Shown here: positions 7,041-61,400 of the stretch, piece by piece
Layout of the letters: each line of letters starts with the position of its first letter
Numbering within the stretch: position 1 is the first letter of the stretch
NCBI GenBank assembly: GCA_021292105.1
Contig: CM037860.1
Coordinates: 9,566,698 to 9,630,697, forward strand
Direction: 5' to 3'
From: Anadara kagoshimensis
Lineage: Eukaryota > Mollusca > Bivalvia > Arcoida > Arcidae
Length of the DNA stretch: 64,000 bases
Made by a program: the position numbers and the translations under genes
Notes under the pieces: model-generated
What the model was told of the DNA's origin: nothing
The model's input: only the letters and a program-made list of their open reading frames with translations
The model's database searches: none

Positions 7041-8275
7041 CTTATTTAGACAACACAACATTCCGCCATTTTAAACATATCAAGTTTATTTGTCACAACA
7101 TATTTGTGTAATTCTCAAAGGCATTCAAAGTTGGTGACCATCAAACAATGATGGAAAATCAAAATGTTGAGTTTAGGGCAGTAATAAAGTTCCTCACAGT
7201 AGAGGGATCAAATGCCAAAGAAATTCACCGGCGAATGGCCGAGTTGTACGGTGACAGCGGTCCTGCCTATTCCACAGTGGCAAAAGGGTCAGTTGAATTT
7301 CAACGTGAGCGCACCTCACTGAAGGATGACCCACTGTCAGGTCGGCCAGCTGATTCCATCACAAAGGAAATTGTCACGTCTGTGGAGACCCTCATCATCA
7401 TGAACGATCGTCGAATTAGGATTGATAACATAGCTAGGGAGTGTGACATTTCACATTGGAATGTATACACGGTTATCCACGAGCATCTTGGGATGTCAAA
7501 AGTACCCGCAAGATGGGTCCCCAGAAACCTTAATGTGCAGGATCGCTCCCAAAGACTCCAGTCAAGTCGGGAGCTTCTTGGTATTTATAATGATAACCCG
7601 GAGAGCTTCCATTTACGTTTAGTAACTTATGATGAAACATGGATTCATCATTGGGACCCAGAAACCAAAAAAGAGACCATGGAATGGAAACAACCTGGGT
7701 CACCCTCACCAAAGAAATTCAAAACCCAACCATCAGCTGGCAAAGTCATGGCCACTTTGTTTTGGGATTCTAAGGGTGTTCTGTTAATCAATTATAAACC
7801 TGCTGAAATCTTTATCACTGGGGCTTACTATGCTGATCTAATGAAGCAGCTGGAAGCTGCTATTAAATTAAAAAGGAGGGGAAAGTTGAGCCGAGGGGTA
7901 TTGCTTCTTCACGGCAATGCTTTTGTGCACAAGTCAAGGATTGCACAGGCAACGATTCGTGAATGCAAGTTCGAACAACTAAATCACCCACCCTACAGTC
8001 CCGATCTGGCACCCAGTGATTGTTTCCTATTTAGAAATTCGAAATCCAATTTACGGGGAATCATATTTCTTGATGATGATAGACTTAAGGCTACCACCAA
8101 GGCATGGTTTCAGGACCAAACCGAAGATTTCTATTTCAAAGTTATAGACAGTCTGAAAGAAAAGTGGGCTAAGTGCATTGGGAAAAATGGGGACTATATT
8201 GAAAAATAATAATACAATGTATGGTTTGTTGCGGCAATATATACCCCGTTCTATAAACTTTTTGACCTCCCCTCG
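7041..8275 (+). mobile_element. mariner-type DNA transposon, about 1.24 kb, nested in DR1
   Basis: The boundaries are inferred by comparison with an unoccupied DR1 copy. The flanking repeat stops at TA (7039-7040) and resumes with TA (8276-8277), as expected for mariner insertion at TA. The right end (ACTTTTTGACCTCCCCTCG) looks like a mariner terminus, but its inverted partner on the left is not evident, so the left end seems decayed. The 1.2-1.3 kb length fits the family. It carries the transposase frame at 7148-8209. Confidence 0.8.
7148..8209 (+). pseudogene. mariner transposase, full-length frame with a lost catalytic aspartate
   Basis: A 353-residue open frame without stops, the normal mariner length. 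The N-terminal half (about 1-120) is the paired helix-turn-helix DNA-binding region, including the linker segment around residues 60-70. The catalytic D,D34D set is expected at D162 (YDETWIHHW), at the HDNA-type motif, and at D291 (YSPDLAPSDCFLF). The middle motif reads LLHGNAF, so residue 256 is Gly instead of Asp (codon GGC at 7913-7915); 34 residues separate it from D291. Known mariner enzymes need all three acids for metal-dependent cleavage, so this copy should be inactive although its frame is open. The frame may simply be young, or could be kept for DNA binding. Confidence 0.9.
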
Positions 8276-22000: not shown

Positions 22001-25000
22001 TCTGTCCATTCAATACATTTAGCTGAAAATTTTTCAATATACCAAATTTCTGTGAGGTCATCCTGAAAAAGCAACGTCATATTGTCTTAATGAACAAATT
22101 GGTTACCATAACTAAATGTAGTTATCGCATCGGTGGTGGGCTTTAGACATGATATTGAGACCATCTTCCTAGTCGAACACACACTGAATTCGGTTATTTT
22201 TGTTTTACCCTCGTCAAATCGTTGGAATATAGACGATAAAAATTCTAAATCCATCTAATATGACATACATGAGATGACATGGTTACAGAAAATATATTTT
22301 GCTAGTGTGTGACTGTCTATGTATTGCTCTTTCAAGAATCGATGCCCTTTGATATATTCGGATCTCGATGGTTTATAGATAACGATGTCTCTCGGGCATA
22401 GGTTCAAATCCCACTTGACATAGGTTTGCCACTTCACTTGTTTTTATTAGCTCACCTGACCGAAGGTCATGTGAGCTTATGGCATAGCGCAGCGTGTGTA
22501 TGTGCGTGTGTGCGTGTGTGCGTGTGTGCGTCGTTAACACCTATTTTCGACTTCTCCTCTGAAACTACTGGACAGTTTTTAATGAAACTTAGTCAGAAGT
22601 ATATATGGGCCGGTGCAATTCAGATTTGTTCGTGGCGTTGCCATGGCTACCATAACTAGGTCAAAGTGACCTAGGGGTGCAAAAATCTTAAAAAATCTTC
22701 TTCTCCGAAAGTACTGATTGGAGAAAAAATCTGATGTGATATTTGGCTTCTCTAGGGTCTTAAGCCTATAGTTTGTTCATTTTGTGAAATTCGGATAAAA
22801 AATAGGTTACGCGTTTTTGCGTTTAATTTTGAAAAAATCGTAAAATAGCTTCAAATTGTTATAACTTGACTATTTGACCAGATAATGACATGGGGTTTTC
22901 AGTTTTGACATCTTCTTGTTAGTATCTTCAAAATGAGGTCAAGGTCAATTGTGAAGGTCGTGACCTAATTTTTTTAACCTCTGATTATAATAATTATCTC
23001 GAAAACTATAAACTTTTTGTATAGGCATGTATATTAGAATGTTGTAGGTATCGATACAACGATCATTTTGATGTATAGAAAAAGGTCATGGGTTCAAAGG
23101 TCAAGGTCACAGATGGGAAACAATACCGAAATTGTCAATTATCTAGAAAACTATAAACTTTTTGTATAGGCATGTATATTAGAATGTTGTAGGTATTGAT
23201 ACAACAATTATTTTGATGTATAGAAAAAGGTCATGGGTTCAAAGGTCAAGGTCACAGATGTGAAACAATACTGAAATGGTTAATTATCTCGAAAACTATA
23301 AACTTTTTGTATAGACATGTATATTAGAATGTTGTAGGTATTGATATAACGACCATTTTGATGTATAGAAAAAGGTCATGGGTTCAAAGGTCAAGGTCAC
23401 AGATGGGAAACAATACCGAAATGGTTAATTATCTCGAAAACTATAAACTTTTTGTATAGGCATGTATATTAGAATGTTGTAGGTATTGATACAACGATCA
23501 TTTTGATGTATAGAAAAAGGTCATGGGTTCAAAGGTCAAGGTCACAGATGTAAAACAATACCGAAATGGTTAATTATCTCGAAAACTATTAACTTTTTGT
23601 ATAGGCATGTATATTAGAATGTTGTAGGTATTGATACAACGATCATTTTGATGTATAGAAAAAGGTCATGGGTTCAAAGGTCAAGGTCACAGATGTGAAA
23701 CAATACCGAAATGGTTAATTATCTCGAAAACTATTAACTTTTTGTATAGGCATGTATATTAGAATGTTGTAGGTATTGATACAATGGTTATCATGATGTA
23801 AAGAAAAAAGTCATTGGGGTTTAGTATTTATGTGTTCTTTAAATCTATCAGCTAGCCATTAGTTATCAGGTGAGCGTATCAGGCCCATGGGCCTCTTGTT
23901 TCATTTTTTTGGGGGACTACGGATTTCTTCATTATACCGCCCAGATATAACTGAAAGTGACTGCGACACTATTACGCTCCTACAATCATTTAAATATCAA
24001 TTAATCTATGTACAATTTTATTAATTTTAAGGCAAAAGTTAAATTGCGATTTATGTGCACCACGTGTCATTACACAAGTACAGTCGATCCTGTTTTAATC
24101 ACCACCTCTATGTGTCGCCTGCTTTTAAAAGCCAGTAAACTTTTATCCAATTGCTCTTTATTCATTGTATTTGAACTTGTATATGAGGGCCACCTGCCAA
24201 TAATAACAACCTTTTCTTGTTTCTTTGTTTGGTATCAATAGACAGGATTGACTATATACATACCTTATGAATATCATAGTCAATAAGGTCAAGATATCCC
24301 TTTAATGAAAAATGCTAACCGAAAGACTTTAAAAGAATACTGAAATTCAGCGATTCTATATTTAATTCAAACTAATTGTGAGCTCATGCGCTCAAAATGA
24401 AAAACATAACTTACATCTTGTATAATTTAAGCGCTTTATAAAATGTATTCAGATCTTTATATTCCTCAAACGATTTGTCATCTTTTCTAAATCGATAGAA
24501 CAGCATTTCATCTTTAAATTGATGGTCATCACAGACTAAAATAAAACAGATGTTCGTAACAAAAAACAATTCAGAACTCGCAGTTAGACAGCAAGTCAAT
24601 ATATATAATTTTAATTAAGATATTGATATAGTTGCTTTTGAATTTTGCCATTTATAATGAACGACCACTGGTCGTGAAATACGTAACTCCCTACCATAGT
24701 ACCTGACTAAACCAAGTTAGATAAACATCCGGTCACTTTGTCAATTGTCTGTCCGATATCGTAATCATCAATATCGATGACTTAAATGTACCATTACCGT
24801 TTGTTTTGGTCATTCTTCTATCGCACAAGTGGTTTGTGTGGCGCTAATTATGATAGTTGTTTGTTGGATCATAGCCATATCTACCAATAGTATGCAAATC
24901 AACGAGCTTAGTATATCCCGTTTGATTGGAGATGTTTATCTGGTTGGTCATTATGATATCTATCATTACATTACAAGCTAGGCGTAACGCACATTTCACA

Positions 25001-32060: not shown

Positions 32061-32900
32061 CAGTAGAACTTCGATGGCTCAAAGTCCATGGGACTTTGGC
32101 CAAGTATTCGAGCCATCGGGGGGTTCGAGCGACCGAACATCGAGAGGCGATCTTCATTAGACTTTAAAAATATTAAATTCACGATGATATCTCGAAGTTT
32201 TCAAACTTCATTTGTAAATAAAATGTTGAACTTCGAACGGCAAATATATCGATGTCGACAGTTCATTTGAATTAAATTGAAAGAAAAAGTAAATAACAAA
32301 AACTGAGGATATTAAATAAACTTACTTTATTATCGTTACAATACAGAGCACAGTGTATTGCCGGTTATGAATAATCACCGGAACTCATGACCGGTAATAC
32401 ACATTGTCATGCGCATTCCAATGAAATGTAAGAAACAGAATCTGAATATTCAAGGATGAGATATAAAAGTCAATCATCTGGCGTGGGCTCAGGTGTTTTA
32501 CCAAGCACCCGCGGGTCGTTATTAAGAAATTACTGGAATTATCACGGTTAATTACTAATCTTGAGTAACACTCTATGTTCCAGACGAGTTATTTCGTTTC
32601 GCTCTATTACTTTCTGTGAAATCTGCATCATGGCTTCAGCTTGTGTTTTGTTTACAATGACTGACCACATGTCATTCTGATAAAATTGTATTCGAGCGAA
32701 AGAAGTTGAATTTTTACCAAATTTACACCTTCGAGAAATATTTATTGTTCGAGCGAGCGGGGGTATTCGAACTATCGTAGTTCGAGCGATCGAGGTTTAT
32801 ATAGATATAATTTAATAGGGATTTGGAGGGGACCGGCAGATGACTTCGAGTTATCCGGGGTATTCGAGGCATCGACGTTCGAGCGATCGAAGTTCTACTG
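32061..32900. mobile_element. Tigger/pogo-like MITE, 840 bp
   Basis: The left end CAGTAGAACTTCGATGGCTC and the right end (reverse complement CAGTAGAACTTCGATCGCTC) are inverted and flanked by TA (32059-32060, 32901-32902). Both subterminal regions are dense in TTCGAG/CTCGAA motifs. There is no transposase frame. The 530-bp duplication starting at about 32679 begins inside it. Confidence 0.85.
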
Positions 32901-32962
32901 TAGTAAAGAGATCTATATCTACTATTATATCTGTACAATTGTGAAAAATTAATTTGAAAATA

Positions 32963-33174
32963 CAGTACAGTCCTGTCGAAAGTTTAACACTATACTAACG
33001 AAAAAAAGTCGAACCTCGGTTGCCACGTGGCGGCTGGGATATGGATAGCTAGTGACCGAAAACCTACCGAGATTTTGAATCTGCAGACAGGCTAGTTCAC
33101 AAGGAGCTGGATTGAGCTAAATATTTGGTACTAATTTGTTTGATTTGTGTTAAACTTTTGACAGGCTTGTACTG
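32963..33174. mobile_element. 212-bp MITE (family M2), copy 1
   Basis: The left end CAGTACAGTCCTGTCGAAAG and the right end (reverse complement CAGTACAAGCCTGTCAAAAG) are inverted, with TA at 32961-32962 and 33175-33176. Confidence 0.88.
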
Positions 33175-33492
33175 TACTGGACATTATCTACCTACAAAAC
33201 ACAGTAAAGATAAAATTGTATTCGAGCGAAAGAAGTTGAATTTTTACCAAATTTACACCTTCGAGAAATATTTATTGTTCGAGCGAGCGGGGGTATTCGA
33301 ACTATCGTAGTTCGAGCGATCGAGGTTTATATAGATATAATTTAATAGGGATTTGGAGGGGACCGGCAGATGACTTCGAGTTATCCGGGGTATTCGAGGC
33401 ATCGACGTTCGAGCGATCGAAGTTCTACTGTAGTAAAGAGATCTATATCTACTATTATATCTGTACAATTGTGAAAAATTAATTTGAAAATA

Positions 33493-33704
33493 CAGTACAG
33501 TCCTGTCGAAAGTTTAACACTATACTAACGAAAAAAAGTCGAACCTCGGTTGCCACGTGGCGGCTGGGATATGGATAGCTAGTGACCGAAAACCTACCGA
33601 GATTTTGAATCTGCAGACAGGCTAGTTCACAAGGAGCTGGATTGAGCTAAATATTTGGTACTAATTTGTTTGATTTGTGTTAAACTTTTGACAGGCTTGT
33701 ACTG
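33493..33704. mobile_element. 212-bp MITE (family M2), copy 2
   Basis: Identical to copy 1 and created by the 530-bp tandem duplication rather than by transposition. Confidence 0.88.
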
Positions 33705-35237: not shown

Positions 35238-35509
35238 GATATTTATAATTTTTAAAATACAACCTGCAAAATACAAATAACAGAACTGTACGTATGTTAA
35301 CAAGAAATGAAGACAGTGTACCATTTTCGGGTCTTGTATAACACGCAAGATAACTGTGAAACAACAAATGTAATGTCAGCCTAGCAGAACTGTGCATCAT
35401 GTAACATGACCAAGCACTGTAACGCTACAATACAAGCCTGGTGAATGTGTAATACTTCGCTAACGAGTTAGCACCGAACCAGATGCAAATCTCGGCCTCT
35501 TGTTAGCTA

Positions 35510-38500
35510 TATCACGACATTTATCAGCTTTTCTATCACTAGTTTTTTTTTATCTCAGACATTCGGAAGCCTATATCACGACATTTATCAGCTTTTCTGC
35601 CATTACCTTTTTTATCTCAGACATTCGGAAGCCTATATCACGACATTTATCAGCTTTTCTGTCATTACCTTTTTTATCTCAGACATTCGGAAGCCTATAT
35701 CACGACATTTATCAGTTTTTCTGCCATTACCTTTTTTATCTCAGACATTCGGAAGCCTATATCACGACAGTTATCAGTTTTTCTGCCATTACCTATTTTA
35801 TCTCAGACATTCGGAAGCCTATATCACGACAGTTATCAGCTTTTCTGCCACTAGCTTTTTTATCTCAGACCTTCGGAAGCCTATATCACGACAGTTATCA
35901 GCTTTTCTGCCACTAGCTTTTTTATCTCAGACCTTCGGAAGCCTATATCACGACATTTATCAGTTTTTCTGCCATTACCTTTTTTATCTCAGACATTCGG
36001 AAGCCTATATCACGACATTTATCAGTTTTTCTGCCATTACCTTTTTTATCTCAGACATTCGGAAGCCTATATCACGACATTTATCAGCTTTTCTGCCATT
36101 ACCTTTTTTATCTCAGACATTCGGAAGCCTATATCACGACAGTTATCAGCTTTTCTGCCACTAGCTTTTTTATCTCAGGCATTCGGAAGCCTATATCACG
36201 ACATTTATCAGCTTTTCTGCCACTAGCTTTTTTATCTCAGACATTCGGAAGCCTATATCACGACATTTATCAGCTTTCTGCCATTACCTTTTTTATCTCA
36301 GACATTCGGAAGCCTATATCACGACATTTATCAGCTTTTCTGCCACTAGCTTTTTTATCTCAGACATTCGGAAGCCTATATCACGACATTTATCAGCTTT
36401 TCTGCCACTAGGTTTTTTTATCTCAGACATTCGGAAGCCTATATCACGACATTTATCAGCTTTTCTGCCACTAGCTTTTTTATCTCAGACATTCCCAAGC
36501 CTATATCACGACATTTATCAGCTTTTCTGCCATTACCTTTTTTATCTCAGACATTCGGAAGCCTATATCACGACAGTTATTAGCTTTTCTGCCATTACCT
36601 TTTTTATCTCAGACATTCGGAAGCCTATATCACGACATTTATCAGCTTTTCTGCCACTAGCTTTTTTATCTCAGACATTCGGAAGCCTATATCACGACAT
36701 TTATCAGCTTTTCTGCCGCTAGGTTTTTTATCTCAGACATTCGGAAGCCTATATCACGACATTTATCAGCTTTTCTACCACTAGCTTTTTTATCTCAGAC
36801 ATTCGGAAGCCTATATCACGACAGTTATCAGCTTTTCTGCCACTAGCTTTTTTATCTCAGACATTCGGAAGCCTATATCACGACATTTATCAGCTTTTCT
36901 GCCACTAGCTTTTTTTATCTCAGACATTCGGAAGCCTATATCACGACATTTATCAGCTTTTCTGCCATTACTTTTTTATCTCAGACATTCGGAAGCCTAT
37001 ATCACGACATTTATCAGTTTTTCTGCCATTACCTTTTTTATCTCAGACATTCGGAAGCCTATATCACGACAGTTATCAGTTTTTCTGCCATTACCTATTT
37101 TATCTCAGACATTCGGAAGCCTATATCACGACAGTTATCAGCTTTTCTGCCACTAGCTTTTTTATCTCAGACATTCGGAAGCCTATATCACGACATTTAT
37201 CAGCTTTTCTGCCACTAGCTTTTTTACCTCAGACATTCGGAAGCCTATATCACGTTAATTATCAGCTTTTCTGCCATTACCTTTTTTATCTCAGACATTC
37301 GGAAGCCTATATCACGACATTTATCAGCTTTTCTGCCACTAGCTTTTTTATCTCAGACATTCAGAAGCCTATATCACGACATTTATCAGCTTTTCTGCCA
37401 CTAGGTTTTTTTTATCTCAGACATTCGGAAGCCTATATCACGACATTTATCAGCTTTTCTGCACTACCTTTTTTATCTCAGACATTCGGAAGCCTATATC
37501 ACGACATTTATCAGCTTTTCTGCCATTACCTTTTTTATCTCAGACATTCGGAAGCCTATATCACGACAGTTATCAGCTTTTCTGCCACTAGCTTTTTTAT
37601 CTCAGACATTCGGAAGCCTATATCACGACATTTATCAGCTTTTCTGCCACTAGCTTTTTTTATCTCAGACATTCGGAAGCCTATATCACGACATTTATCA
37701 GCTTTTCTGCCATTACCTTTTTTATCTCAGACATTCGGAAGCCTATATCACGACATTTATCAGTTTTTCTGCCATTACCTTTTTTATCTCAGACATTCGG
37801 AAGCCTATATCACGACAGTTACCAGCTTTTCTGCCACTAACTTTTTTATCTCAGACATTCGGAAGCCTATATCACGACATTTATCAGTTTTTCTGCCATT
37901 ACCTTTTTTATCTCAGACATTCGGAAGCCTATATCACGACATTTATCAGCTTTTCTGCCACTAGGTTTTTTTATCTCAGACATTCGGAAGCCTATATCAC
38001 GACATTTATCAGCTTTTCTGCCACTAGCTTTTTTATCTCAGACATTCCGAAGCCTATATCACGACATTTATCAGCTTTTCTGCCATTACCTTTTTTATCT
38101 CAGACATTCGGAAGCCTATATCACGACAGTTATTAGCTTTTCTGCCATTACCTTTTTTATCTCAGACATTCGGAAGCCTATATCACGACATTTATCAGCT
38201 TTTCTGCCACTAGCTTTTTTATCTCAGACATTCGGAAGCCTATATCACGACATTTATCAGCTTTTCTGCCGCTAGGTTTTTTATCTCAGACATTCGGAAG
38301 CCTATATCACGACATTTATCAGCTTTTCTGCCACTAGCTTTTTTATCTCAGACATTCGGAAGCCTATATCACGACAGTTATCAGCTTTTCTGCCACTAGC
38401 TTTTTTATCTCAGACATTCGGAAGCCTATATCACGACATTTATCAGCTTTTCTGCCACTAGCTTTTTTTATCTCAGACATTCGGAAGCCTATATCACATC

Positions 38501-40045
38501 ATTTATCAGCTTTTCTGCCATTACTTTTTTATCTCAGACATTCGGAAGCCTATATCACGACATTTATCAGTTTTTCTGCCATTACCTTTTTTATCTCAGA
38601 CATTCGGAAGCCTATATCACGACAGTTATCAGTTTTTCTGCCATTACCTATTTTATCTCAGACATTCGGAAGCCTATATCACGACAGTTATCAGCTTTTC
38701 TGCCACTAGCTTTTTTATCTCAGACATTCGGAAGCCTATATCACGACATTTATCAGCTTTTCTGCCACTAGCTTTTTTACCTCAGACATTCGGAAGCCTA
38801 TATCACGTTAATTATCAGCTTTTCTGCCATTACCTTTTTTATCTCAGACATTCGGAAGCCTATATCACGACATTTATCAGCTTTTCTGCCACTAGCTTTT
38901 TTATCTCAGACATTCAGAAGCCTATATCACGACATTTATCAGCTTTTCTGCCACTAGGTTTTTTTTATCTCAGACATTCGGAAGCCTATATCACGACATT
39001 TATCAGCTTTTCTGCCACTACCTTTTTTATCTCAGACATTCGGAAGCCTATATCACGACATTTATCAGCTTTTCTGCCATTACCTTTTTTATCTCAGACA
39101 TTCGGAAGCCTATATCACGACAGTTATCAGCTTTTCTGCCACTAGCTTTTTTATCTCAGACATTCGGAAGCCTATATCACGACATTTATCAGCTTTTCTG
39201 CCACTAGCTTTTTTTATCTCAGACATTCGGAAGCCTATATCACGACATTTATCAGCTTTTCTGCCATTACCTTTTTTATCTCAGACATTCGGAAGCCTAT
39301 ATCACGACATTTATCAGTTTTTCTGCCATTACCTTTTTTATCTCAGACATTCGGAAGCCTATATCACGACAGTTACCAGCTTTTCTGCCACTAACTTTTT
39401 TATCTCAGACATTCGGAAGCCTATATCACGACATTTATCAGTTTTTCTGCCATTACCTTTTTTATCTCAGACATTCGGAAGCCTATATCACGACATTTAT
39501 CAGTTTTTCTGCCATTACCTTTTTTATCTCAGACATTCGAAAGCCTATATCACGACAGTTATCAGCTTTTCTGCCACTAGCTTTTTTTATCTCAGACATT
39601 CGGAAGCCTATATTATGACATTTATCAGTTTTTCTGCCATTACCTTTTTTATCTCAGACATTCGGAAGCCTATATCACGACATTTATCAGTTTTTCTGCC
39701 ACTACCTTTTTTATCTCAGACATTCGGAAGCCTATATCACGACATTTATCAGCTTTTCTGCCATTACCTTTTTTATTTCAGACATTCGGAAGCCTATATC
39801 ACGACAGTTATCAGCTTTTCTGCCACTAGCTTTTTTATCTCAGACATTCGGAAGCCTATATCACGACATTTATCAGCTTTTCTGCCACTAGCTTTTTTAT
39901 CTCAGACATTCGGAAGCCTATATCACGACAATTATCAGCTTTTCTGCCATTACCTTTTTTATCTCAGACATTCGGAAGCCTATATCACGACATTTATCAG
40001 CTTATCTGCCACTAGCTATTTTATCTCAGACATTCGGAAGCCGAG
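35510..40045. repeat. 4.5-kb satellite-like array of a 62-bp unit
   Basis: About 73 head-to-tail units containing CTCAGACATTCGGAAGCC, TATATCACGACATTTATCAG and CTTTTCTGCCATTACC or CTAGC. Most units are 62 bp, with 1-2 bp variation in the T-run. Recurrent variants (ACATTT/ACAGTT; AGCTTT/AGTTTT; CCATTACC/CCACTAGC) alternate along the array. It starts about 270 bp upstream of the hydroxylase ATG and ends abruptly at GAAGCC/GAGCC. Open frames within it (35500-35916, 39615-40271) are products of the repeat. Confidence 0.97.
36365..39470. repeat. Higher-order duplication: two blocks of 25 units, about 1553 bp each
   Basis: Rare variants recur at a fixed offset: GTTATTAGC at about 36577 and 38129, CTGCCGCTAGG at 36717 and 38269, CACGTTAATTATC at 37253 and 38808, CATTCAGAAGCC at 37361 and 38917, GTTACCAGC at about 37813 and 39369. 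The order matches throughout, with only a few differences, so a 25-unit block was duplicated in tandem after the single units had diverged. Block 1 is about 36365-37917 and block 2 about 37918-39470. Confidence 0.85.
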
Positions 40046-41900: not shown

Positions 41901-42473
41901 GGCCAACATTAATGTCAAGTATCATTGGCTTATTACCTCTGGAGAACAAGTTGAGAATATAAAAAACGTAAATACCATAACGTGATAACTATAATGTTCA
42001 ATATCGGGCTTTGGTTCATTTTTTGAAATTCAAACTAAAACTTTGATGCCCAGTATCTGTAGAATAAAAAGCGGAGTTTCAGTAATTATGAATACTGTTT
42101 TTTCATCTTCAAAAAAAAAAAGAAAAAGAAATAGTTTACTCAGGTATTGACTGGTGTATTTAAATAGTTTTGTATTGTTTTATTGACTTAGTATGTATAT
42201 TTACGTACATACACAGATTTACATGACTTTAAAGATCAAAGGCAGTAGAGATATTCATAAACTTCTTAAGTAATTAATTGATTTTTAATGTATTCTTATT
42301 TTAACTATATTGTAATTATCAATGCGATAATCAGCGTTTGATCTATGGAATTAGAGTATACCGTCATGCATTTGTATTATTAATTCGTTAATAAATGATG
42401 CACTTGTTATATTTTACACAGCTACAATCTGACTAGGGGTTTCTTTTCAGGATAGAATTTTCACGAGCACAAA

Positions 42474-44866
42474 CACGGGGGGTATACCAATTTCCCGAAA
42501 ATCGCATCCAGCCGATGGATACGCGCTTTATAGCATCCGTCCGATGGTTACTTCATACATTCGTGTGTTACAGCATCCAGCCGAGGAAAATCATCACGAT
42601 CAGATACAGGTAAAGAGAGATTTTTGCGAATTTACAAGGTTTTGATTAAGTTAGGTGATGGAATTTGGTATAAGAATGGTCTTGCACTGTATTGACATCG
42701 TCAGATTGCATATGGCATGCAGAATAATCAAACTAACTCCAGAAATGTTACTCTGAGCAGACAATGTTGATTTTTTTCAATATAAAATGCTTCATCTTAT
42801 GTGTAAAGGTGTAATTTTTTATGTACACACGCACAACACAACGCTCTTTTTGTTCCCTTCCATTTTTGCTTGCAACTATGTAATTAAGTGCAATAAATCG
42901 GACGTTAAAGATTTCGTAGTACGGCATCCGTTCTGCAGTTTACAACAGTGGTACCGCATCCGTTCCTTAATGTTACGGCATCCGTCTTCAGAAATGACAT
43001 TTCGTTTTGCTCCACTTTTGATATATAACCTTGTAAGTAGCATTTGTACGCAATTGATTATAATCAAGCAACACACCTTCACCACTACTGATGTATTAAT
43101 ATTACGATCTGTATATTTATAAAATGAAAAGTGACTTAAAAATAACCAGAGCTACGAATAACAACCACAGCAAAACAAGAAACTTTAGAAAAAAGCACGA
43201 TACATGTTATGAGAACACATGTAGGGACCACTGATTATAAAACTCCCGACTGTGGACGGACAGTGTGTACTTTTGCAGGGCCCCAACTATTTAACAATTA
43301 AAATTATAACCAGTAAACCAACATCCGGCATAAAAATTCATATATGACTGAGTAACTCTTTCTTTCGTTCAGAATTGTCATTATGTATTATTTCATAAAA
43401 ATTCAAAAGTAGCACATGACAGAACATTGCGGTTCAGCTAGAGAGAGAGGGATCATTTTTAGATTTATCAGAGATCCAACGAGAGAAGCTTGTAACGCTT
43501 TTACCACTGACATCAACTCCACTGTGAAGTAGGATTTGCAGTAATTGTGGGAAGATTTCTTGACAATTCCACTCAAAAGTCCCATTTAAATGTACGACAT
43601 GCACCCAATTTTTTTACAGTACAGCTGGTCTCAAGGGTCATGTCAAGGCAAAGCACACTCGACATTGGATGTGCAGCAGCTGTGAAAAAGTCTTTAAACG
43701 GCGATTAAGCTTGAACGAACACACGAAAGTCAAACATTCTGATAAGGGTAAAAGACTCATTTGCAATATGTGTCAAAAGAAGTTTACCCGCCTCGGCCAT
43801 CTGCATGATCATATGAATTGCCATTAATCAAGGACGTCTTACAAAAGCCGATGCAAGCGGAGCTTTGCGAATAAGTGCAGTTTTATGTGGCATGAGCGTG
43901 AGTGTAACGGTCAAGCGAAAAATGTTTGTTCTATCTGCAAACGCAATTTCACTTGCAGCTCATCTCTGAGAGACCACATACAAATAATCCACGGGGGCAA
44001 GAGGAACATATGTGAATTTGGTAACTCCTACATATGGAGATCGGGTCTTCAGAGGCATCTAGGAGGTCTTGCGCATGATCCGGCATACGGGTTCCAACTG
44101 CGTCGGATGACTAACTTTGATGCCTCTGGGATCTTAACCTGGCCAAGAACTGTCAATCAGTTTATGATGTTGGGGCAACTTCACATAAATATATACACGG
44201 GTTTCATGTGCATTTTGTTTCAGTGCTACTGCAATTAGATGTTCTAATATTTCATGGTTTAGATATGTACTAATATTGCAACATATGAGACTTTTTTTTA
44301 TTTTAATCAGACTTTGGTTCCAAATTATTATACTATTCACTGTATACAAACAAAGATGGATGCCGTACCTAATATTACTTAAAATATCTGGATGCCGTAC
44401 CATGTTCCGTCGATGCCGTACTACGAAATCTTTAACGTCCGATTTATTGCACTTAATTACATAGTTGCAAGCAAAAATGGAAGGGAACAAAAAGAGTGTT
44501 GTGTTGTGCGTGTGTTCATAAAAAATTACACCTTTACACATAAGATGAAGCATTTTATATTGAAAAAATCAACATTGTCTGCTCAGAGTAACATTTCTGG
44601 AGTTAGTTTGATTATTCTGCATGCCATATGCAATCTGACGATGTCAATACAGTGCAAGACCATTCTTATGCCAAATTCCATCACCTAACTTAATCAAAAC
44701 CTTGTAAATTCGCAAAAATCTCTCTTTACCTGTATCTGACCGTGATGATTTTCCTCGGCTGTATGCTGTAACACACGACTGTATGAAGTAACCATCGGAC
44801 GGATGCTATAAAGCGCGTATCCATCGGCTGGATGCGATTTTCGGGAAATTGGTATACCCCCCCGTG
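42474..44866. mobile_element. Foldback-type DNA transposon, 2.39 kb, with 456-bp inverted arms
   Basis: Arms 42474-42930 and 44411-44866 are inverted copies with high similarity. They start CACGGGGGGTATACCAATTT and share a frame beginning MLHLMCKGVIFY on opposite strands. A 5-bp ACAAA directly flanks both ends (42469-42473, 44867-44871), consistent with a target-site duplication. Inside and beside the arms the motif GCATCC(A/G)(G/T)CC or CGGCATCCG recurs at least six times on the left, with complements on the right. The 1.5-kb centre carries a broken C2H2 zinc-finger array. I cannot assign a known superfamily. Confidence 0.88.
43530..44140 (+). pseudogene. C2H2 zinc-finger array inside the foldback element, broken by stops
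   Basis: In one frame the sequence reads ICSNCGKIS, stop, KVPFKCTTCTQFFYS...HVKAKH, WMCSSCEKVFKRR...HTKVKH, LICNMCQKKFTRL...HMNCH, stop (about 43827), then CKRSFANKCSFMWHEREC, NVCSICKRNFTCS...HIQIIH and a degraded finger NICEFGNSYIWRS...GGLAH. That makes six to seven C2H2 fingers spaced by short linkers, with two in-frame stops and missing cysteines in the outer fingers. The fingers would have bound nucleic acid, possibly the element's own repeated arm motifs. There is no separate catalytic domain. Host-gene capture and element-encoded DNA-binding protein are both possible. Confidence 0.85.
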
Positions 44867-44871
44867 ACAAA

Positions 44872-55812: not shown

Positions 55813-56692
55813 ATTATTTGACTTAAACACTCCTAAAACTGTCTCAATGAGTGACTGAGGGTATTATGAGTCTTTATGTTAACTGTTCACAATGGACTAC
55901 TGTGTACAAAATTCATGAAAGGTGAGGTAAATCCTGAAAACACATCTTATTAACTACTTTGAATTATTGTCAATACATTTGTATTATTATTTTCATAATT
56001 TTTTTAATTTGAATATTATTTGAAAGATATTATTTTAGAAGTTTACTCATTTACCTTCAAGCTTTTTTACATCAGCATAAATTTAAATCCTGTGTGGAAC
56101 AAAGTGAAACACATAGCATTTCACGTTCCTTAGAATTATCGGATTTACACACAATTGCCAAATCAGCTCTTTTTTCAATCTATAGTGAAAATATTTGTGC
56201 TTTATATGATGTAATTACAAAATCGGTCCTAAAAATCAGGAAAAATAAACAATTGGTTTTCAAAATATACTGAACAAAAAAGGTTTGGGACCATTGAAAA
56301 TTAGAAATAAAAATTCAAAAACTGAAAAATGTAAAACCCATCAATATTTTGTTCTTATTCTGTTCTGGTTTCATTCAAATGATGTTATGAAGTTACTTTT
56401 TTGTGCATGAAATTAAATCTCCTTAATGAAATTATGTGAATATAAAATGATATGATTTACCTTCTACCAAAATTAAATAATGTTTTTGATGTGGCCTTTA
56501 ACTTTTTTTGTTGAGTAATACTGTATGTTATATATCTGCATCATATAAAGCACATATATTATCATTATAACATAAAACAAGGGCTGATCCAGTAATCCTA
56601 GGATGTCTAGAATATGAAACGTCCTGTAAGAATCTTACAGTAAGATATCCACACCTGTATTCGCAATCCCAGGCAAGAACGACAGAATTACA
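55813..56692. other. Intergenic, nothing recognised
   Basis: AT-rich; no coding or structural signal that I can support. Confidence 0.45.
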
Positions 56693-57745
56693 GACGTTTC
56701 GTCCCATAGGACTTTTCGTCCCATGCCATTTCGTACCATTTTCGAGACATTTCGTACCATGTTCAGGACTTTTAGCCATAATTATAAGACGTTTCGTACC
56801 ATAGGACTTTTCGTCCCATGACATTTCGTAACATTTTAATGACTTTTTAAAGATATTTTATTAATTAATTACTTATTTATTTTGTTTTTGAACTGTGTTA
56901 TAAATAAAATTTAGGACTTTTGTCCCATGACATTTCGTAACATTTAATGACTTTTTAAAGAGATTTTATTAATTAATTAATTTATTTATTTATTTATTAT
57001 CTGTTGTTTTTTTTACTGTGTTATAAATAAAATTTAGTTACATAGATATATTTAATTTCCCCGTCTTGTCCTTTTAACAGTGTTAAGGGGGATGATTAAG
57101 GTATACATCTTTATTTTTTATATGGATTTAACTAACCACAATTTTATGCCAGTATACTTTCTTTTTTCTCTCGCTTTATCATTAAATAAACTTTAAAGCC
57201 ATAAAGTCTCAGTATTTCATTTTTAATACCAATAAAAGCATGTTTCCACAATTTTTATTGTTCTGTTGATGGAAACGTTCTACAAACATGAGGAAGCGTA
57301 CGTGGATTTACATCACTTGATGTCCTGCTTATAGAAATGTAAGAGTGATATATTGTTGAAAAATGGCAATGTTAAAAAGTATCCATAAAATCTGAAAAAA
57401 TAAGATGCAGAAAAATAGGATGTGCACGTGTCCAATATGTAATAATAATATCATGCAAATTTAGTTTCAGACCGTTAGTGGAGGTGCACATGTTCAATGA
57501 ATATAGCATAACAAATGTATAATGCCAGGACGAAAAGTACTACACGGGTCCAAATATGACATTAAACGTTCTGAACAAATTACTTAATGTAATGGTACAT
57601 CTTAAAAATGGGGAACAGAAAGTCCCCAAAATGTTTAAGAAATATTATGGGACAAAAAGTCTTATGGTACGAAACGTCTTAGAAGTTTGGGACGAAAAGT
57701 CCTGAATATGGTACGAAATGGCATGGGACGAAACGTCTTGCATCC
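56693..57745. mobile_element. Foldback element with repeated GGGACGAAA motifs
   Basis: The left side (56693-56830) has GACGTTTCGTCCCAT, GGACTTTTCGTCCCATG and ATTTCGTACCAT, and the right side (57645-57745) the reverse complements in mirrored order. Each arm is built of short repeats of TGGGACGAAA or TGGTACGAAA plus CGTC/AGTC. A further partial copy is at about 56911-56955. The centre is AT-rich and has no coding capacity. Confidence 0.75.
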
Positions 57746-58459: not shown

Positions 58460-61400
58460 ATGGTGAGCTGAGCATTATTTTCTAAAATATCATTTTATTT
58501 TGGTGATGATTCTATGAATTTTGGTGTTTTCATTTAATATTTTATATGGTTAATCTTTCATTTTAAAGCAGTTTATATAAGGGGTTTATTTGGTCTCCCT
58601 TCTTGTTCTTCTTGTCTCTGTATAAGCTTCCTGTTTTAGGAACACCCCGAAGGTAACACATGCACGAGATTTAACAGATGATTAAGTTTAAATTTAAAGT
58701 ACATGTTTATTAAACCCCTTGCTTGATGTCGGACTGTGTTAGACGTCTTTTTGTTGACTGATTATAGGACCCTTGGCCTGGTTGCTGACGTGTTTTGTTT
58801 TAGAAGTGTTTCTTCCATGTATCAGGCTATGCGGGGTTTTGTATTTTCATTTTCAGTCTTTATTCTTGAAATATATTGTCCTCTTGTAGTGCACAGTATT
58901 GGACTGTAATTATATCTGTTTTCCACATCAACTGTTGGTTCCGTCACTTTTGACGATTACACAAGGTAACGTATGGTGCTGGTCATAAGAGTAGCAGTGC
59001 TCCAGATAGAGTGCGTAATTACGCAAATCTTTTGGACAAAAATGCATTAAATTAAAAATCCATGCATCTTGGAACGCAAAACTAAAAGCTTGTTAAGAAT
59101 TAGAAATTCACTTTGTGCATATTTTATAATTTATGGTAAATCATCCTGATGGAGAAGCGAGACAAACTCAAATTATATATAGTAGGGCAATGACATTGAT
59201 ATACTAAAAAGTAATTTAGGTATGTAAAAGGGAGATAATTATTTACAGGTCTCCTGTTCTTCTCTAAAATAGCGCACATCCAACTGAAAACACCGACACA
59301 TTCTGTCTATGGTTAATAATAACTAATTCTCAATGTGAATGGAGAAGCATAAATGCAAAATTTAAGAAAATAAACATCAGTTATTGATGTTAAAGTTTGT
59401 GAATCAAACTTATGTAAGCAGCCGCGATAAAATTGACATTTTGTAATTTGTAATATTTGCAATTTTTCCTTCAATTTGTGAAATTAGCAAAAAATTCCAT
59501 CACAAAAAAATTACCACATTTACAGTAAATTAGAGGAGTGCTTTAATGATTTATCCTTGCAGAACGAGTCAAATAAAATAAAAATTAACAAGATATAGAA
59601 TATTTGAAACTAAACAGAATTCTAATAAAAGAAATATTGTTGATTTTTCAGTATTGATTTAACCATATTAAGCATTGCAACAAAAATCTGTGCTTCATTA
59701 AGAATTGTGCCTCAAAAATTATCTGGAGCACTGGAGTAGGAGAGAAAAATTATAGGAAAGTTAGAAACTGATTTACATCTACTGTAGGAACCACTGTGGC
59801 TGTGACAGTGAAATTCTCTTTATATCCATAGAAAATCAAATAAATTTGAATAAAGTTTGATATTTTTCACTTACTTGTACCTAGTCGTAACAGGAACTCT
59901 GTATGCACATCCGCGATTGTCATAAAGTATGTCTGTAAAAAGGAAAATGTTGGAGGTATGGGGATTTTACACATGCGAAAATGACGATGTTTACACCGGA
60001 AGTGATGTCATTGGTGATGTTTTTACATCATATGCGCAACAGAAGCCGCCATTTGCATGGTTTTTCAACATGTTAAATCCCCATAACACCAACGTTTTTC
60101 CCTATGCAGATATATTTTAGGCTAATCGCAGATGCGCATACAGATTTCCTGTTATGACTAGGTACAAGTAAGTGAAAAATATCAATCTTTATTCAAATTT
60201 ATTTGATTTTATATGGATATAAAGAGAATTTCACTGTCACAGTCACAGTGGTTCCTACAGTAGAAGAATAGATAAAAGATAGAATTCCAGCTGTGTTTTC
60301 TCCCCTCAGCCCAAGCCTTCCATTTACAATGGCCATGGCTGGTACAGCCTTGAGAGTATATAGCAGCTACTTACAAGTTACAGCTGCAGACCTACATAAA
60401 GATTAGATGTAGATGGAGCCAAGTCCCCGCTTGAAGGATACCAAGTCAGGGCAATATAATCAGGTAGACTGTTTTATGCTGTCCTGGGAAAGAACAAGCA
60501 TCAATGCCTATGTTACAATATGTCGATATAGTTTGCATTCTGTAGTTCCTAAGTGTGTTAACCTGGTGTAGTTTAGATTTTCAGCAATGTTGTTGATGAA
60601 AATCAGAAACAAGGTTGGTTTCAATACTCAGACTGAGATGGTTTGTACTTTGATGTGCATTAATGTTGACATAATGATTGTTAATATATAAACTACATAT
60701 ATCATGGCATGTTTGCAATAGCTAGAATTCTCATTGTAAGGACTGAAGTTTTGTGGGCCAAGACATAATTAGACAACTGGATGAAATTCATGTAAACATT
60801 TTGGTTTTTGCAACACTAAATGACTAATGTGAATTTTAGTGGGCAAATTTGAAAAAAATGAGTATTGATTTCTCCCAGGAGACACATTTATTCAGTAGTA
60901 ATTAAATTCACACAAAACCAGTGTTATATAAAGCAAGGTGTTCAGTTTTTACAGGTTCTACTGTATAAATAATTAAGATTAAATTATTGTAAATAAGATG
61001 TTTTACATATTGTTAGATGGCTAAAAAAGGAAAGAAAAGATTAAGAGAATCAGAGGGAAGCCCCAAGACAATCAAAAGACATAAAAGTAAGTACTGGTAC
61101 TAGTGTTGTTTGTTGTGAATTATGTGTCTGTTTTGGGGAAAAAAGTGTATGTTATGGTTGGCTTTGCCCATCCAAGAACAGTAACATTCTAGATGAACAG
61201 ACTGGCCTTTATTGGATTCTCTTTAAATTTAAAATATATAATCTAATTAGCAAAAGATGTTGCACAAGTTGTGCCCCGTTTACCAAATAATTAATTTTAA
61301 AAAAATCTGAAACACATGACAGAAATCAATTTAATTTGATGTCCCCATGGTTTTAACCTTATAATTTATAGATTTTGTGAATTTGGTTGAAAAATGGGTC

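Follow-up and report, generated by a model that had tools for sequence, protein, structure and literature searches.

The window analysed here is a stretch of 64,000 bp (C4:9566698-9630697) from the 1.115-Gb genome of Anadara kagoshimensis, which comprises 36 contigs. It holds a foldback element whose ends, arms, arm-motif sites and finger-gene remnant are listed in Table 1. The initial annotation had described a foldback transposon with 456-bp arms and an ACAAA duplication at this place, and our analysis confirms this. Each window arm is made of a 300-nt and a 157-nt block, both 99% complementary to their partners, and the ~456-bp arms are 99% identical overall. The left tip reads CACGGGGGG, and the right tip carries seven G. 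Having long inverted arms with internal repeats, a target duplication and many genomic copies, the element is confirmed as a foldback-type DNA transposon.

Table 1 Location of the foldback element and its parts, given as positions of the window
Feature	Position	Strand	Remarks
Foldback element	42474-44866		2,393 bp, between two ACAAA duplications; ends CACGGGGG
Target duplication, left copy	42469..42473	.	ACAAA; read from the sequence and from the end comparison of copies
Target duplication, right copy	44867..44871	.	ACAAA; read from the sequence and from the end comparison of copies
Left inverted arm	42474..42929	+	456 bp, tip CACGGGGGGTATACC
Right inverted arm	44411..44866	-	Tip with seven G
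Left outer GCATCC sites	42504..42578	+	Three (42504, 42533, 42573), inward
Left inner GCATCC sites	42924..42983	+	Three (42924, 42956, 42978); second and third beyond the palindrome
Finger-gene remnant, first part	43564..43827	+	Three C2H2 fingers; ends at an in-frame TAA
Finger-gene remnant, second part	43828..44238	+	Same frame; one clear finger and degenerate ones
Right inner sites	44358..44416	-	GCATCC at 44390-44395 and 44358-44363; degenerate site at about 44411-44416, intact in the consensus
Right outer sites	44761..44835	-	GCATCC at 44830-44835 and 44801-44806; changed GCATAC at 44761-44766

We looked for further copies that share these ends and a 5-bp duplication, as the initial annotation had suggested; it had named a single genomic copy as the outcome that would speak against it. 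Using a 601-base left-side query and scoring 40 of 177 candidates, we found at least 40 arm matches genome-wide, the window included, at 96-100% identity; this copy number is a lower bound. Thus, the element is not a chance pattern. An exact 5-bp duplication flanks 31 of the 37 two-ended copies, against 4 of 1,332 mismatched pairs, and CAC...GTG stands at nearly all ends of these copies. The 31 duplications are AT-rich, the middle base least so. Among the remaining six copies, L012 and L033 have 6 bp, L010 matches at four of five positions, and L014 (changed tip), L040 (C run) and L042 show no clear duplication. Three of the 40 copies were set aside from this count: L016, considered as a long copy, runs into a stretch of N; in L048, the consensus match stops at 924 and the right end was not found; and in L034, the arm type changes at consensus position 1943 and no duplication was identified. 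A genome search for tips in which TATACC is followed by another base than A gave none, and hence no divergent-tip relatives by that route.

We built a consensus from 20 copies (the window copy and 19 other genomic copies, without L016). Seventeen of them diverge from it by 1.2-2.1%, which suggests fairly recent activity, while L015, L025 and L024 diverge by 3.0-4.6%. Several copies hold inserts of about 0.3-1.3 kb resembling nested repeats; by eye, those of L010, L015, L020, L022, L024, L025 and L026 look so. L010 and L026, on different contigs, have one inserted repeat in common, at the same element position (about 713-722), so it probably travelled with the element.

Comparing both arms in 19 elements (L016 and L022, whose right arm is broken, were left out), we find that the left and right majority bases are identical over 456 columns and differ from column 457 on, so that the two blocks behave as a single arm of 456 bp. 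Since the left arms were picked as best matches to the query, their divergence is biased downward. Private variants were common to both arms of one element 30 times, in counts summed over rows of the same 19 elements, whereas about 3.4 were expected from other elements. Thus, the arms are homogenised within elements.

The repeated GCATCC-type motifs noted in the arms by the initial annotation also hold up. In the window, GCATCCRNYCGA (at most one mismatch) has seven matches against 1.10 expected, none of 100 shuffles reaches seven, and six of the seven matches fall within the arms. The 20-copy consensus contains exactly 12 GCATCC sites, six per end and all pointing inward, where about 1.2 are expected in that length; the window copy retains 10 of the 12 exactly. 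Counted from the two ends of the consensus, the outer sites stand at 31/60/100 and 34/63/103, and the inner ones at 450/482/504 and 453/475/507. On each side, two of the three inner sites (the second and third) are outside the palindrome; the left and right sequences differ there, and yet the motif TACGGCATCC is kept. This speaks for a putative bound site and against a by-product of the arm sequence.

The two window stretches of the finger gene are split by an in-frame TAA. Pfam zf-C2H2 scores the first above the cut-off (E=2.4e-9) and the second below it (0.00069). In the 20-copy consensus, the gene also carries a stop and frameshifts, so the finger gene was probably already dead when the young subfamily spread. 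With the window finger protein as the query, 155 matches were obtained (150 scored of 1,099 candidates). Among the matches listed, the best-scoring uninterrupted one is L050, at C15:29751574. Its arms are 91% identical to the young consensus, and near its left arm stands an intact finger ORF of 237 aa with a start codon; by count it has seven finger-like units, and Pfam scores five zf-C2H2 stretches in it. The second arm of L050, at C15:29759388-29759844, is 99% identical and gives an element of 9,460 bp. Two other older copies, L052 (about 2.8 kb long) and L053, have arms about 90-93% identical to the consensus. For L050 and the young consensus, dN is 0.066 and dS is 0.138, from 223 codons after removal of gapped and stop codons, which supports past selection on the finger protein.

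A second family is represented by L051, at C6:40183341. It has an uninterrupted finger frame of 229 aa that matches the window finger protein at 39% and has the finger layout and N-terminal block of L050. The L050 and L051 proteins are identical at 101 of 221 aligned residues, the N-terminal block included, and Pfam scores five zf-C2H2 stretches in the L051 protein. At the first, second and third codon positions, the two differ in 98, 80 and 140 of 221 cases; dS is not estimable for this pair. The L051 ORF shows no in-frame start at the conserved N-terminus, and a frameshift or an unseen exon may account for this. Upstream of the L051 frame lies L054, a sequence that can be aligned to the L050 and L053 interior at about 55-57%. 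It has no GCATCC and carries GTTACGCTTTCCG, GTTATGCTTTACG and GTTACGCTTTCCG where the first family has three TACGGCATCCG sites. Taking L054 as the query and scoring 40 of 624 candidates, we found a likely second arm of L051 at C6:40193788-40194034; it is inverted and 98% identical, while the other scored matches, except L054 itself, reach at most 91%. With this arm, the L051 element has a length of at least 12.4 kb. Elsewhere among the L054 matches listed, there are inverted pairs with spacings of about 3-6 kb, which suggests shorter derivatives in the second family too. Separately, the right side of the young copy L034 turns to the second-family arm type at the inner arm boundary (L034 2106-2306), and a small hairpin lies there; this suggests an exchange between families, or an insertion just there.

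Two further checks proposed by the initial annotation concerned copies with intact fingers and copies with a transposase. The former exist as L050, beside the uninterrupted frame of L051. As to the latter, we recognised no transposase in the short copies and no convincing Pfam match in eight ORFs scanned from L050 2650-4401. The second outcome that the initial annotation had named as speaking against it, related copies with a known transposase and no fingers, was accordingly not seen in the short copies or in this part of L050.

We propose, at a probability of roughly 0.65, that the window copy is a non-autonomous foldback element with the long elements as its autonomous or ancestral parents, that it is moved by a transposase supplied in trans, and that the finger protein is an accessory protein or regulator acting through the arm sites. 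The long elements (L050 with 9.46 kb and L051 with at least 12.4 kb) would represent the parents, autonomous or ancestral, from which the 2.4-kb copies would derive by internal deletion, to be moved in trans; the window copy itself is best read as a deletion derivative of long elements such as L050 or L051. A transposase, probably encoded within the remaining interior of the long elements, would cut at the CAC tips with a 5-bp stagger. By analogy with the THAP domain of Galileo, the finger protein may be an accessory DNA-binding protein or an element regulator that uses the repeated arm sites. The two arms of an element would stay identical by pairing with, and converting, each other.

The occurrence of long and short forms alike among the older copies (9,460 bp in L050, 2.8 kb in L052) counts against deletion derivatives. 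One may turn the relation around: the 2.4-2.8-kb form would be the basic element, and the 9.46-kb and 12.4-kb copies the same element with unrelated repeats inserted. The short size of the old copy L052 fits this, as do the nested-repeat-like inserts of several copies and, by eye, a repeat unit in the L051 interior that resembles the L010/L026 insert. But the two long copies found are just those with uninterrupted finger ORFs, and L050 2650-4401 matches none of the other element DNA in the small sample compared. We regard the short form as a rather improbable starting point.

The finger gene may instead be a captured host passenger with no role in movement, as foldback and Mutator elements are known to pick up gene pieces. 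The gene is broken in the window copy and in the young consensus, and host-type finger proteins with long open frames match the window finger protein at 28-37%. Two findings stand against capture: two families that differ in arm motif both have long elements with related, uninterrupted ORFs close to the left arm, and dN lies below dS between L050 and the young consensus. A passenger is rather unlikely, and the finger gene seems to belong to the element itself and not to be chance cargo. The cargo of the initial annotation thus stands as a lasting part of the long copies in two families, and not as a working gene in the window copy or the young consensus.

The fingers may read the arm motif, and the initial annotation had proposed such a self-recognising module. 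We scored the fit of fingers to sites with a crude finger code and the contacts of L050, the repeated sites being not independent of one another. On the six inner sites, the L050 fingers gave a marginal fit, with 28 of 1000 finger orders and 2 of 500 contact shuffles doing as well. There was no fit on the six outer sites (718 of 1000 orders and 339 of 500 shuffles do as well) and no clear fit on all 12 sites (143 of 1000 and 37 of 500). The L051 fingers did not fit the motif of their own family either (408 of 1000 and 181 of 500). In cross-checks, 130 of 1000 orders did as well as the L050 fingers on the L054 sites, and 942 of 1000 did as well as the L051 fingers on the inner sites of the first family. 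Finger binding to the arm motif is thus plausible from the anatomy of the element and weakly supported: the module finds a marginal fit at the inner sites and none at the outer sites or in the second family. A wider form of the idea, which we hold to be improbable, is that large foldback transposons with 9-12-kb parents and 5-bp duplications would form a new group, in which the element's own C2H2 protein would read the arm motif, and the GCATCC-type and CTTTCC-type motifs would co-diverge with their finger arrays, giving a natural series of ends and finger proteins that match.

Should the finger gene be a working part, this would be a DNA transposon with a C2H2 array as the protein that recognises its ends or controls it. 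Each family would then pair a finger protein with a matching arm motif, and one could test directly whether a transposon and its own DNA-binding protein co-evolve.

The superfamily of the element was the other question. Transib duplications are GC-rich, whereas those of the present copies are AT-rich, and this weakens the reading that the element is a non-autonomous RAG-like/Transib member moved by a RAG1-like transposase. CAC ends with 5-bp duplications mark that group (PMC7204232), and the window family shares both with RAG-like/Transib elements, ProtoRAG included. The window tip CACGGGGGGTATACC, however, departs after CAC from the protostome RAG-like consensus given there, CACTWMCAAACKTYKBB, and shows neither a heptamer-like tip nor an A-rich block at positions 8-10 (PMC7204232). 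In lancelet, the host C2H2 protein YY1 is reported to bind the ProtoRAG ends (PMC7481187); this would suit a finger protein at the ends, but YY1 is a host protein and the C2H2 gene here lies inside the element. A RAG1-like ORF is present in the genome at C8:56669592 (L029), the one genome-wide match to the RAG1 profile PF12940, a profile that may miss Transib; it lies in neither long element. We examined L029 as an autonomous parent and rejected it. No GCATCC, GGATGC, CACGGGG or CCCCGTG occurs in L029 or the adjoining 3 kb (L030), these stretches show no element ends, and they give only short, chance-level matches to the element consensus. On balance, RAG-like membership appears unlikely. The L029 frame stays open over more than 743 aa; its C-terminal half is RAG1-like, and its tail looks SAP-like.

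CACTA (EnSpm) elements end in CAC, have arrays of repeated sites close to their ends, encode a DNA-binding protein in addition to the transposase and give 2-3-bp duplications. The present element resembles them in its CAC ends, in its six sites per end and in the separate DNA-binding protein gene of the large elements, but duplications of 5 bp in 31 of 37 copies make a CACTA relative very unlikely. Duplications measure 8-11 bp in Mutator (MULE) elements, 7-8 bp in the P superfamily and 7 bp in Galileo, as against 5 bp here. The initial annotation had been unable to place the element in a known superfamily, and we reach the same result: the CAC ends and 5-bp duplications fit RAG-like elements and the tip does not, and the duplications of CACTA, Mutator and P differ.

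Other foldback elements were compared as well. Tm1 and Tetris are not known to carry a C2H2 gene. Both are foldback elements judging by their titles, Tm1 (PMC3169594) being placed under Mutator by its title and Tetris being described in PMC4079207. Galileo, a P-superfamily element of Drosophila, is reported to have long, foldback-like arms to which the THAP domain of its transposase binds at several sites (PMC3688188). The long arms with several sites are alike; the THAP domain is part of the transposase there, while the C2H2 ORF is separate here. No THAP domain was found among the window element proteins, the eight ORFs of L050 2650-4401 and the L050 and L051 finger proteins. Ginger1 and the related Ginger2/TDD elements were considered from their report (PMC2836005), in which Ginger1 ends in TGTNR, the Ginger2/TDD transposase is Gypsy-integrase-like and TDD-4/5 have 5-bp duplications. 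The present copies have CAC at their ends, not the TGT of Ginger1. Among open-licence papers on DNA transposons with C2H2 genes or such ends, we recognised nothing as this element.

The window has several other repeats. At 35507-40042, a 62-bp unit is repeated in tandem about 73 times, with 94% matching. At 22991-23814 lies a 145-bp tandem array of 5.7 copies, whose unit resembles by eye the L051 repeats and the L010/L026 insert. At 7112-8206 there is a stop-free frame of 365 aa for a mariner-type transposase (Pfam Transposase_1). Identical 300-nt direct copies at 32679-32978 and 33209-33508, 530 bases apart, reflect a recent duplication or an assembly effect. An inverted repeat at 59778-60264 has 194-nt arms, 89% complementary and 99 nt apart, and short repeats of the type GACATTTCGTACCAT lie on both strands at 56692-57737.
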